From NCBI GenBank assembly GCA_001872285.1, contig MNXU01000065.1:1-64000 (forward strand): a DNA stretch of 64,000 bases, in the 5' to 3' direction. The position numbers were made by a program, and so were the translations under genes. The DNA is from Betaproteobacteria bacterium CG2_30_68_42 (GTDB taxonomy: Bacteria > Pseudomonadota > Gammaproteobacteria > Burkholderiales > Rhodocyclaceae). This document shows, one piece after another, positions 25,274-63,624 of the stretch. The notes beneath the pieces were generated by a model. That model was not told where the DNA came from. It saw only the letters and a list, made by a program, of their open reading frames with translations, and searched no databases. The first letter of the stretch is position 1, and each line of letters begins with the position of its first letter.

Positions 25274-27328
25274 ATGGCCAACCATCTCGCCGCGGAAACC
25301 TCCCCTTACCTCCTGCAGCATGCGGAAAACCCGGTGGACTGGTACCCCTGGGGCGACGATGCGCTCGCGCTGGCGCGGGCGCAGGACAAGCCGATCCTGC
25401 TCTCGATCGGCTACTCGGCCTGCCACTGGTGCCATGTCATGGCCCACGAGTCGTTCGAGGACGAAGGGATCGCGGCGCTGATGAACCGGCTGTTCGTCAA
25501 CATCAAGGTGGACCGGGAGGAGCGTCCCGACCTGGATCACGTTTATCAGGCCGCGCATCAGATTCTCACCGAGCGCGCCGGCGGCTGGCCGCTCACGATG
25601 TTCCTCATGCCGGACGGCACGCCGTTCTTCGGCGGAACCTATTTTCCGAAGGCCGCACGCTACGGCCTGCCCGGCTTCCCGCAGATTCTCGAGCGGGTCG
25701 CCGAAGCCTATCACGCCGAGCGCGGCAAGATCGCGCAGCAGAACCGTGCGCTCGCCGCCGCGCTCGCGCGCTCGCTGCCCGAGGCCGCGCCCGGCGTGAC
25801 GCTGTCGATGCGGCCGGTCGATGCGCTTGCCGCCGCACTCGCCTCCGGCTTCGATCCGGTAAACGGCGGCTTCGGCGGTGCGCCGAAATTTCCCCACCCC
25901 TGCGAGCTCGATTTTCTCCTGCGGCGTTCGCAGGCGCGCGGGGACGCGCGCGTCCTGGAGATCGTGACAACGACGCTCACCCGCATGGCCTGCGGCGGCA
26001 TCCACGACCAGATCGGCGGGGGATTCTGTCGCTACAGCGTCGATGGGCACTGGAGCATCCCCCATTTCGAGAAAATGCTCTATGACAATGCGCTGCTGCT
26101 GCGGCTGTACGCCGACGCCTGGTTGGTGACGCGCGATCCGCTCTATGCTGCGGTGGCCGCACGCACTGCGCACTGGGTCCTGCGCGAGATGCAGTCTCCG
26201 GAAGGCGGCTACTACGCCTCGCTCGATGCCGATTCCGGGCACGAGGAAGGCGCGTTCTACCTGTGGACCCGCGAAGAGCTGCGCGCTGCTCTGCCCGCCG
26301 GATCCCGCGCGCTGGCCGAGCGCCACTGGGGGCTCGGGGAGCCGCCCAATTTCGAGGGCCATGCGTGGAATCCGACGGCGGCCGAGCCGCTCGAGCGCAT
26401 CTGCGCCGATCTGGGAATCGGACTGGAGGAGGGCGGGCGTGCGCTTGAGGAGGCCCGGGGACTTCTTCTCGCCGCGCGCGAGCGGCGCAATCGCCCCGGG
26501 CGCGACGAGAAGATCCTGACCGGGTGGAACGCGCTCATGATCGAGGCGATGACCCATGCCGGAGTCGTTTTCCGCAATCCGCAGTGGCTGGACTCCGCCG
26601 GGCGGGCGCTCGAATTCGTCCGCGCCACCCTGTGGCGGGAAGGCCGCCTGCTCGCCACATGCAGGGACGGCCGCGCGCGGCTCGATGCCTGTCTCGACGA
26701 TCATGCCTTCCTGCTCGCGGCGCTGATCGAGCGCATGCAGGCGCGGTTTCGTGGCGAGGATCTCGCTTTCGCCGCCGGCATCGCCGACGCCCTGCTCGCC
26801 CGCTTCGAGGACGAGACGGCGGGCGGCTTCTTCTTCACCGGTCACGACCACGAGAGGCTGATCCACCGGCCCAAGCCGGTGCACGACGGCTCGACGCCGG
26901 GCGGGAACGCGCTGGCGGCGGTCTGCCTCCAGCGGCTCGGCCACCTGTGTGGCGATGCGCGCTATCCGGATTCTGCACGCCGCACCCTGGAGCTGTTCGC
27001 ACCGCAGATGGAGCGCCAACCCTCGGGATTCGCCACGCTCGCCCTCGCCCTCGAGGAACATCTCGATCCGCCTGCCGTCGTCGTCCTGCGCGGGAGCGAC
27101 GAAATGGCGGATTCTTGGCTGGAACGGTTGCACAGCCGCTATCAACCGCATACCATTGCCGCCTTCGTCGGCACACACGAGCGCGGGCTGCCGCCCGTCC
27201 TCGACAAACCGGCAGGCAAGCATGTCAACGCCTGGGTCTGTTCGGGCGTTCATTGCTTGCCGCCGATCGAAGATCCGGCGGAGCTGGAGGGGGTACTCGC
27301 GAGCCGCGCGTCGAGAGGCGCGAATTGA
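25274..27328 (+). CDS. Thioredoxin domain-containing DUF255 (YyaL/SSP411) protein
   Basis: This 684-residue cytoplasmic protein begins with the DUF255 thioredoxin-like domain. The signature is [16 protein letters not shown], with a CxxC pair at residues 50 and 53, after [18 protein letters not shown]. The remainder is an alpha/alpha-barrel resembling N-acylglucosamine epimerases ([40 protein letters not shown]). Members are widespread but their biochemical role is unsettled. It is divergent from the EamA gene and is followed 27 nt later by a cytochrome c gene. Confidence 0.93.
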
Positions 27329-61232: not shown

Positions 61233-62812
<1,580 letters not shown>

Positions 62813-62839
62813 TCACCTCTCTCGATTCGAAATGCCGGT

Positions 62840-62882
62840 CCGGGTGCGCGGGTTCTCGCCGCGCACGCCCGGGAACTTTTTT
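62840..62882 (+). terminator. Plus-strand hairpin with T6 upstream of hemB
   Basis: Arms 62840-62851 (CCGGGTGCGCGG) and 62859-62872 pair over 12 bp with a 2-nt bulge and a 7-nt loop. GAAC and six T follow. On the plus strand this is a plausible intrinsic terminator, with slmA the nearest upstream plus-strand gene. It overlaps the possible promoter of the small RNA. Confidence 0.5.
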
Positions 62883-62900
62883 CGGGTCGCGCCGATCTAT
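62873..62900 (+). promoter_or_regulatory. Possible sigma-E-type promoter for the candidate small RNA
   Basis: GAACTT (62873-62878) is followed after 17 nt by TCTAT (62896-62900), which resembles the sigma-E/AlgU consensus GAACTT-N16/17-TCTGA. A sigma-70-like -10 TATGAT (62898-62903) overlaps it but has no good -35. GAACTT also forms part of the hairpin-T tract upstream, so a chance match is possible. Confidence 0.4.
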
Positions 62901-62905
62901 GATCG

Positions 62906-63017
62906 CAGATGGTGACGAACCGTCTCCCGCTTCACCTCCCTGAGCGGGTGCCTTAATCCTTATTAAGGCAGTTCGGCCCCCGGTCTTCCTCCCCTTTGAC
63001 CGGGGGCCTGTTTTTTT
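62906..63017 (+). ncRNA. Candidate trans-acting small RNA with C/U-rich loops, engB-adjacent
   Basis: This predicted transcript of about 110 nt folds into three stem-loops. The first is CCCGCT/AGCGGG (62926-62931 with 62943-62948); with a further CA/TG pairing it exposes loop CCTCCC. The second is a perfect 9-bp TGCCTTAAT/ATTAAGGCA with loop CCTT (62949-62970). The third is an 11-bp terminator stem GGCCCCCGGTC/GACCGGGGGCC with loop TTCCTCCCCTTT and then TGTTTTTTT. Two loops therefore resemble anti-Shine-Dalgarno sequences. Its position and convergent orientation relative to engB match Spot 42 beside yihA, and from memory ErsA in Pseudomonas. Expression and targets are not known. The 3' 65 nt are antisense to the end of engB. 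Confidence 0.6.
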
Positions 63018-63624
63018 GCATCCACCCGGCGATCCGGTCTCTGGCCTCGCCGATTCCCAGCTTGGTGACCGAAGAGAACAACTGCACCGATGCGCCGGCG
63101 CACCGGAGCGCGAGTTCGTGTTCGACCTGTCGCAGCGTCCGGGCCGCCTGACTTCGCGAGAGCTTGTCCGCCTTGGTGAGCAGCGCGTGAACCGGCTTGC
63201 CTTCCGCGCCGAGCCAGCCAGCCAACTGCTCGTCGAGGCTGGTGAGCGGGTGGCGGGCATCCATGACCAGGATCAGCCCGCACAGAACGTCGCGGCCAGC
63301 CAGATAGCGCTCGATCAGCGGCCGCCACTGTGCGCGCATCGCCTCGGGCACCCGGGCATAACCGTAGCCGGGGAGGTCGACCCAGTACCCGTCGCCGACG
63401 CGGAAGAAGTTGATGAGCTGGGTCCGCCCCGGCGTTTTGCTGACGCGTGCGAGGCCCCTGTGATCGGCGAGCGCGTTCAGCGCGCTCGACTTGCCCGAAT
63501 TCGAGCGCCCGGCAAAGGCGATTTCGGGACCGGACCGGGACGGGAAATCGCGCCCGGCCGCGGCCGACTTCTCGAATTTCGCGGCGCGAAATACCGACGC
63601 ACCCGTAGCAAGCTCGTCGACCAT
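62953..63624 (-). CDS. engB: Ribosome biogenesis GTPase EngB (YihA/YsxC)
   Basis: This 223-residue TRAFAC GTPase is needed for 50S assembly. P-loop GRSNSGKSS is at residues 39-47, G2-region SKTPGRTQLINFF follows, G3 is DLPGYGYA, and G4 reads LTKADKL. The ATG at 63624 gives the normal MVDELATGASVFRAAKF start. The C-terminal 20 or so residues (from MQKNRPPV) are encoded opposite the strong plus-strand terminator of the candidate small RNA and are not conserved family sequence. It is divergent from the cytochrome c4 gene. Confidence 0.95.
   Translation of the reverse strand: MVDELATGASVFRAAKFEKSAAAGRDFPSRSGPEIAFAGRSNSGKSSALNALADHRGLARVSKTPGRTQLINFFRVGDGYWVDLPGYGYARVPEAMRAQWRPLIERYLAGRDVLCGLILVMDARHPLTSLDEQLAGWLGAEGKPVHALLTKADKLSRSQAARTLRQVEHELALRCAGASVQLFSSVTKLGIGEARDRIAGWMQKNRPPVKGEEDRGPNCLNKD
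62975..63017 (+). terminator. Strong intrinsic terminator inside the engB 3' end (antisense)
   Basis: An 11-bp perfect GC-rich stem (62975-62985 with 62998-63008), a 12-nt loop and the tail TGTTTTTTT form the clearest Rho-independent terminator in the window. It is oriented on plus; on minus it lacks a U tract, so it does not serve engB. The only nearby plus-strand transcript it can end is the candidate small RNA. Confidence 0.88.

Follow-up and report, generated by a model that had tools for sequence, protein, structure and literature searches.

As described in the accessible parts of the papers cited here, the small RNA anti-hemB, also called Burkholderia RNA 7 (RF02837), corresponds in B. 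cenocepacia J2315 to ncS04, a 105-nt RNA that has a mapped transcription start and 3' end and was detected by Northern blot (PMC5688073). Its gene lies between BCAL0264 and BCAL0265 in the orientation <- -> <-, the RNA co-purified with Hfq (PMC4603805), and anti-hemB has been classed as trans-acting (PMC3521395). In the accessible text on B. cenocepacia, ncS04 showed no significant change across seven tabulated conditions, and 20-min stresses, including SDS, mostly did not induce the sRNAs assayed (PMC5688073). No report of a sigma-E dependence of ncS04 was found in the literature searched, and the main texts, as far as they were accessible, gave no tested function, target or named regulator for anti-hemB. 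Mentions of anti-hemB or ncS04 were found solely in Burkholderia papers within this limited literature, which takes in few subscription journals.

The sX13 RNA of Xanthomonadaceae (RF02232) sits downstream of polA, and through its C-rich loops it represses mRNAs that bear G-rich motifs, independently of Hfq, again according to accessible text; in Xanthomonas its far neighbour is not engB (PMC3771888). ErsA of Pseudomonas aeruginosa lies between polA and engB and is reported, in the parts of the papers available, to be strictly sigma-22-dependent. No paper naming both sX13 and ErsA was found, which is weak evidence of absence with most subscription journals outside the search, and no title in the same limited literature concerned a common sRNA family at engB with hemB or polA, or with RpoE. 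Spot 42 lies between polA and engB/yihA, convergent with the latter, and is under cAMP-CRP control rather than that of sigma-E.

We analysed a stretch of 64,000 nucleotides from Betaproteobacteria bacterium CG2_30_68_42 (the window), in which an earlier note had proposed a trans-acting small RNA. Throughout, the order is taken to be Burkholderiales, and the class is Gammaproteobacteria in the GTDB sense, with Betaproteobacteria included.

Results

An anti-hemB gene in the gap between hemB and engB

The stretch 62906-63017 on the plus strand is a real small RNA gene of the anti-hemB family (RF02837), which is catalogued and little understood; the element is not new. In an Rfam search of the window, the RF02837 covariance model matched over its full length (model positions 1-81) with an E of 2e-15 and a score above the curated cut-off of 49.5 bits, which makes the RNA a member of the family. 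The sole other match above cut-off in the window was one tRNA, and anti-hemB is present above cut-off as a single copy in the genome, the next-best match having an E of 0.19. The features of the locus are as follows.

61799..62806, minus strand: hemB open frame, divergent from the RNA, with the start codon some 100 nt upstream of it (Pfam ALAD, E 2e-136)
62871..62878, plus strand: sigma-E-type -35 box, GGGAACTT (string search)
62896..62903, plus strand: -10 box, TCTATGAT, 17 nt past the -35 box (string search; TC at fixed spacing kept in both groups of relatives)
62907..62925, plus strand: SL0, 5' hairpin, 7 pairs (fold and covariation)
62909..63016, plus strand: predicted transcript, about 108 nt (start placed from the -10 box, +/- 2-3 nt; fold z -6.6)
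62923..63016, plus strand: RF02837 anti-hemB match, 73.8 bits
62926..62948, plus strand: SL1, anti-Shine-Dalgarno loop CCUCCC (fold; CCTCCCTGAGCGG in 81/85 genomes of the order)
62949..62970, plus strand: SL2, 9-bp stem, loop CCUU (fold and covariation)
62975..63017, plus strand: SL3, terminator, loop UUCCUCCCCUUU, U tail (fold, terminator scan and covariation)
62953..63624, minus strand: engB open frame, ribosome-binding GTPase by Pfam, last 64 nt antisense to the RNA

The gene order and the SL1 loop are those of ncS04, and the two RNAs share a length class. Compared with the RF02837 consensus, the RNA in the window has a longer terminator loop, and the model begins at SL1 and omits the 5' hairpin that is present here. 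The mapping and Northern blots of ncS04, as given in the accessible text, bear out the proposal of a real, separately transcribed small RNA, and the proposed link to Hfq agrees with the Hfq binding of this ortholog (PMC4603805 and PMC5688073, in the parts available).

As is typical of its family, the RNA lies in a hemB-engB gap, divergent from hemB and convergent with engB, instead of at the polA-engB site of ErsA; polA of the source genome is on a different contig. The earlier note had seen no gene on that strand, and this holds for the plus strand. However, the minus-strand engB frame reaches 62953, and 62953-63016 (64 nt) is antisense to it, through the terminator and most of SL2. The comparison of the site with that of Spot 42 also held in part: the convergent placement beside engB fits the annotated polA-spf-yihA order of E. 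coli, but the other neighbour is hemB and not polA.

Across the order, RF02837 matched 204 of 250 genomes at E<=0.01 and 164 of 250 above cut-off; across the class, the corresponding counts were 203 and 21 of 369. A match at E<=0.01 is not specific on its own, because 4 of 14 named control genomes also matched at this level, none of them above cut-off.

Four conserved hairpins

The fold of 62906-63017 (plus strand) has a minimum free energy of -56.2 kcal/mol, compared with a mean of -32.2 (sd 3.1) for shuffled sequences (z -7.7; 0/200 shuffles as good). The earlier note had drawn the three hairpin loops (CCUCCC, CCUU and UUCCUCCCCUUU) exactly as found here, and likewise the 11-bp terminal stem and its T-rich tail. 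The fold adds a fourth hairpin that the note lacked, SL0 (62907-62925), which opens at the note's own start, 62906.

To count covariation, all 82 chosen sequences of the order were aligned over the four hairpins (29 pairs). Of the cells, 92.9% were paired, and 22 of the 29 pairs had changes on both sides. Double changes occupied 210 cells against a shuffle mean of 51, with 0/500 shuffles reaching 210, and sliding the partners along the same alignment reduced pairing to 55% or less. A hand-picked subset of 57 sequences gave similar figures (96.0% paired, both-side changes in 20/29 pairs, 130 double-change cells vs 28). Every one of the 7 pairs of SL0 showed double changes, with 13% of its cells unpaired in the 82 sequences. 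SL1 yields little covariation because its stem hardly varies, and CCUCC in its loop is invariant (82/82). The string CCTCCCTGAGCGG also occurs in 32/66 examined genomes outside the order, and CTCCC in 84/85 within it and 64/66 outside. The C-rich loops, which had been proposed to be exposed, are conserved. In sequence, CCUCCC is similar to the anti-Shine-Dalgarno end of 16S rRNA.

Given the terminator-like SL3, the element could in principle be mainly a terminator or RNA-end structure between two genes, its upstream hairpins being by-products with no regulatory role. Such by-products would not be expected to keep double changes in SL0-SL2 or an invariant CCUCC, nor would a mere end structure have its own conserved promoter (see below), and the ortholog is a discrete 105-nt, Hfq-bound transcript in the accessible reports. 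We regard this explanation as very improbable, and treat the RNA as a regulatory small RNA in what follows.

A sigma-E-type promoter upstream of the RNA

Upstream of the RNA, the window has a promoter of sigma-E (RpoE) type, GGAACTT-N17-TCTATGA, which the earlier note had not mentioned. The boxes GGGAACTT and TCTATGAT place the start near 62909 and therefore the length near 108 nt. Boxes of the form [G/T]GAACTT and TCNNA are what we take to be the RpoE consensus. The pattern [GT]GAAC-N16-20-TCNNA was found upstream of 66/91 hits in the order, one further hit being left out for missing upstream sequence, compared with 35/1820 random windows of the same loci (1.8 expected). Outside the order it was found upstream of 46/82 hits, compared with 28/1640 random windows (1.4 expected). 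Taking one RNA per genome, GAAC lay in the expected upstream range in 77/84 examined genomes of the order and 58/66 outside it, vs 12% of control windows. The first bases of SL0 aside, nearly all of the information is in the two boxes. The genome encodes rpoE (331 bits vs a curated cut-off of 236), and the frame directly after it carries an RseA_N (RseA N-terminal) domain (E 3e-14). At motif level, the RNA in the window has a sigma-E/sigma-22 promoter of the ErsA type. From these motifs, the RNA is most likely transcribed by sigma-E (RpoE) polymerase under envelope stress.

A trans-acting anti-Shine-Dalgarno RNA might alternatively be driven by a housekeeping sigma factor, with GGAACTT a relic or of minor use. 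TCTATGAT does resemble TATAAT, but a consensus scan of 62700-63200 found no sigma-70-type site, and GGAACT and TC are kept at fixed spacing where the flanks are not. The absence of a significant change of ncS04 in seven conditions, in the part of that study available, would fit a housekeeping promoter; on the other hand, ErsA at a related site is strictly sigma-22-dependent according to the accessible text of its paper. We consider a housekeeping promoter rather unlikely and favour control by sigma-E.

Just upstream of the RNA, at 62834-62884, there is a GC-rich inverted repeat and then TTTTTT; the -35 box is on the 3' side of the repeat, whose fold is only slightly better than that of shuffled sequences (z -1.5). 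Several RNA copies are present in one genome of the order (G234), two without the usual neighbours (L056 and L057) and one beside hemB (L058), and GAAC is absent from the 70 nt upstream of all three.

Conservation of the locus

For 174 hits selected by score, we mapped polA, engB and hemB in the fetched flanks (at most about 1.5 kb). These data provide independent support, because the covariance model is blind to neighbours. Among 92 hits in 85 genomes of the order, 58 had a convergent engB and an upstream hemB, 4 a convergent engB alone and 7 hemB alone; engB was in another orientation in 13, and 10 had none of the three neighbours. Outside the order (82 hits in 66 genomes), 31 had an upstream polA and a convergent engB, 17 a convergent engB, 15 an upstream polA and 4 both polA and engB with a reversed RNA, and 15 had none of the three neighbours. 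Thus polA and/or engB flank 67 of the 82 RNAs examined there. Many other Gammaproteobacteria in the GTDB sense thus carry the same gene at engB, with polA as its other neighbour.

Orthologs of engB at the polA-engB locus were found with the engB of the window and E. coli YihA as queries. Two Acidithiobacillus loci fetched via EngB alone also have the RNA, which sits between the two genes and runs into the end of engB (E 2e-4 and 8e-4), and a Rhodanobacteraceae locus fetched by EngB (L038) gave no RNA match at E<=10. In the 13 hits with engB in another orientation (L021, L077, L079, L075 and L095 among them), engB is upstream on the same strand as the RNA; the gene therefore seems turned round, with its place kept. 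The RNA is repeated in tandem at L158 (G419, 1150-1911), L163 (G526, 858-1801) and L160 (G510, 1054-1802), with four, four and five copies, respectively, between polA and engB or behind polA, and the stretches examined upstream of the tandem copies mostly carry a GAAC-type box of their own.

The family name anti-hemB suggests an action in cis, in which the 3' half of the RNA, antisense to the engB end, and its 5' side, facing the hemB leader, would work through pairing or transcriptional interference. However, no part of the RNA lies within the hemB frame, and outside the order polA replaces hemB while the RNA stays. For engB, the frame and the RNA match share 1 nt or more in 45/62 order loci with a convergent engB, and 64 nt here, which agrees with such a role, but the overlap is found in only 10/39 loci outside the order and engB has another orientation in 13/92 order hits. 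An invariant SL1 loop and covarying hairpins would also be unneeded for antisense pairing. We consider regulation in cis improbable and retain the trans-acting reading; the RNA is not antisense to hemB, which is just a neighbour in this lineage.

Relationship to sX13, ErsA and Spot 42

Like the RNA in the window, sX13 has C-rich hairpin loops. The Rfam models of sX13 and anti-hemB fall on the same positions in four intermediate genomes (G419, G331, G481 and G526), with E of 7e-8 to 0.004 for sX13 at those places and best E of 7e-10 to 1.2e-7 for anti-hemB. Twelve genomes had below-cut-off sX13 matches, which comprise these four, five in which the listed anti-hemB place is elsewhere and three in which no place is listed. 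Three genomes with sX13 above cut-off had no anti-hemB match at E<=0.01, and the RNA of the window itself scored 16.5 bits against sX13 (E 0.88), below the cut-off of 50. The promoter of sX13 has diverged, with a poor -10 box at three sX13 loci.

We also scored loci with two models built from this RNA family, R1 and R2. R1 matched sX13 loci at E 0.003-0.05, which is within the range of E. coli DsrA (L282 523-620; E 0.009 with R1 and 0.00035 with R2). Because DsrA scored too, R1 and R2 scores alone are no proof of a link to sX13 or ErsA. DsrA lies elsewhere in E. coli and is not known to be related.

For ErsA, we used the family of G410, a genome with PrrF above cut-off; on that ground the family was taken as Pseudomonadaceae. 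Of 12 loci fetched there for the best whole-genome R2 hits, 8 are at polA and/or engB, and R1 scores at these are at the level of DsrA. All 8 loci show, by eye, [GT]GAACT ... TCAGA, and these RNAs have a C-rich terminator loop; site and promoter agree with the published placement and sigma-22 dependence of ErsA. SL1 is replaced by a long, weakly paired stretch, and the loci were matched to ErsA by position and layout alone. The engB loci of three Pseudomonas-like genomes, namely G410, G519 (PrrF below cut-off) and G611 (of G519's family), gave no R2 hit. ErsA and the RNA in the window are alike in promoter type (sigma-22 of ErsA being of RpoE type) and in having an engB-side site; the place of the RNA is related to that of ErsA, as the earlier note had proposed. 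A putative kinship with ErsA draws on place, promoter and layout.

The note had further assigned the RNA to a class related to Spot 42, which was not supported. R1 gave no match at spf at E<=10, and R2 matched it at its annotated place at E 0.002. Among 12 further E. coli sRNA regions scored with R2, DsrA did better than spf, and CyaR gave E 0.06; the score of DsrA above Spot 42 is probably a chance likeness of Hfq-type sRNAs. Nor was a Spot 42 (RF00021) match listed for the window at E<=10. We rejected this kinship because its support comes down to score and place, and DsrA outscores it.

Two alphaproteobacterial-type families with CCUCC-type loops gave sub-threshold matches: ar14 (RF02344, alphaproteobacterial) to the window (23 bits, cut-off 58.8), Acidithiobacillus and two sX13 loci, and Atu_C7 (Rhizobiales) to three sX13 loci. 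A search with R2 for orthologs beyond the class covered 249 genomes of the phylum. It gave matches at E<=0.01 in 38 genomes from outside the class; 0 of the 12 loci fetched from these had polA or engB in the flank, and such orthologs were not supported.

Candidate targets

The earlier note had remarked that CCTCCC can pair with GGGAGG-type sites such as that of pilG. This remark carries no weight, because GGGAGG-N2-14 before ATG or GTG occurs as 7 strings in the window vs a shuffle mean of 16.5; the sole such string before ATG is at 25283-25304 (minus strand), 13 nt before the ATG. In a scan of the genome, CAGGGAGG-N3-10-ATG was found at 14 places, compared with 3 for the reversed pattern. Of nine frames behind CAGGGAGG sites, 8 match Pfam families, including OmpW, NlpC/P60, PPK2, DsrE, EB_dh and CheZ; the ATG of one (L234) is probably internal because the frame enters the profile late (position 77).

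A perfect CAGGGAGG, complementary to the SL1 loop, lies 7 nt before the ompW start codon (L235 1498-1518), and ompW may be an attractive candidate target for a sigma-E RNA. GGGAG or GGAGG was present in 9/30 ompW leaders vs 7/191 control leaders, and the mean pairing energy was -9.2 for ompW leaders vs -8.8 for cyc4. The ompW site thus does not appear specially conserved, although the leader seems mildly richer in G-rich sites than controls.

Discussion

We think it likely that the anti-hemB sRNA described here is a trans-acting RNA of about 108 nt, nearly all of it in four hairpins, driven by sigma-E and held by Hfq, whose CCUCCC blocks G-rich Shine-Dalgarno sites, and that sX13 and probably ErsA are versions of it in other lineages. 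In the proposed mechanism, sigma-E (RpoE) polymerase would transcribe the RNA when the envelope is stressed, and the RNA would be held by Hfq. The exposed CCUCCC of SL1, aided by the C-rich terminator loop, would then base-pair with Shine-Dalgarno sites rich in G and so prevent translation, in the manner of sX13 in Xanthomonas. A role of Hfq may not extend to the whole family, since sX13 works without it according to accessible text. The structure, family membership, covariation, and conservation of promoter motif and locus are observed in the genomes compared, and transcription and Hfq binding come from the papers on the ortholog; from these we infer sigma-E control, repression at ribosome-binding sites and the targets.

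Beyond what we found in print, the analysis adds the covarying 5' hairpin, the sigma-E-type promoter, and the engB/polA placement outside the order together with the overlap of the sX13 and anti-hemB models. We slightly favour the view that anti-hemB, sX13 and ErsA, although described separately, go back to one ancestral sigma-E-driven anti-Shine-Dalgarno gene beside engB, equal in age to the Gammaproteobacteria (GTDB), which formed tandem arrays of 4-5 in some lineages and was lost or replaced by Spot 42 in enterics.

An Rfam entry for anti-hemB already existed; with a conserved sigma-E-type promoter, the RNA now has a proposed role in envelope stress that can be tested. The shared locus and the overlap between models link it to sX13 and ErsA, both of which have known targets and phenotypes, and partly answer a question raised in the accessible text of the sX13 paper, namely whether the polA locus elsewhere encodes sRNAs, and of similar design (PMC3771888). 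Comparison with relatives suggests that the RNA is induced by envelope stress and has a common origin with sRNAs studied in other bacteria. If the three RNAs do descend from a single ancestral gene, it would be the RNA arm of the sigma-E response with the widest distribution.
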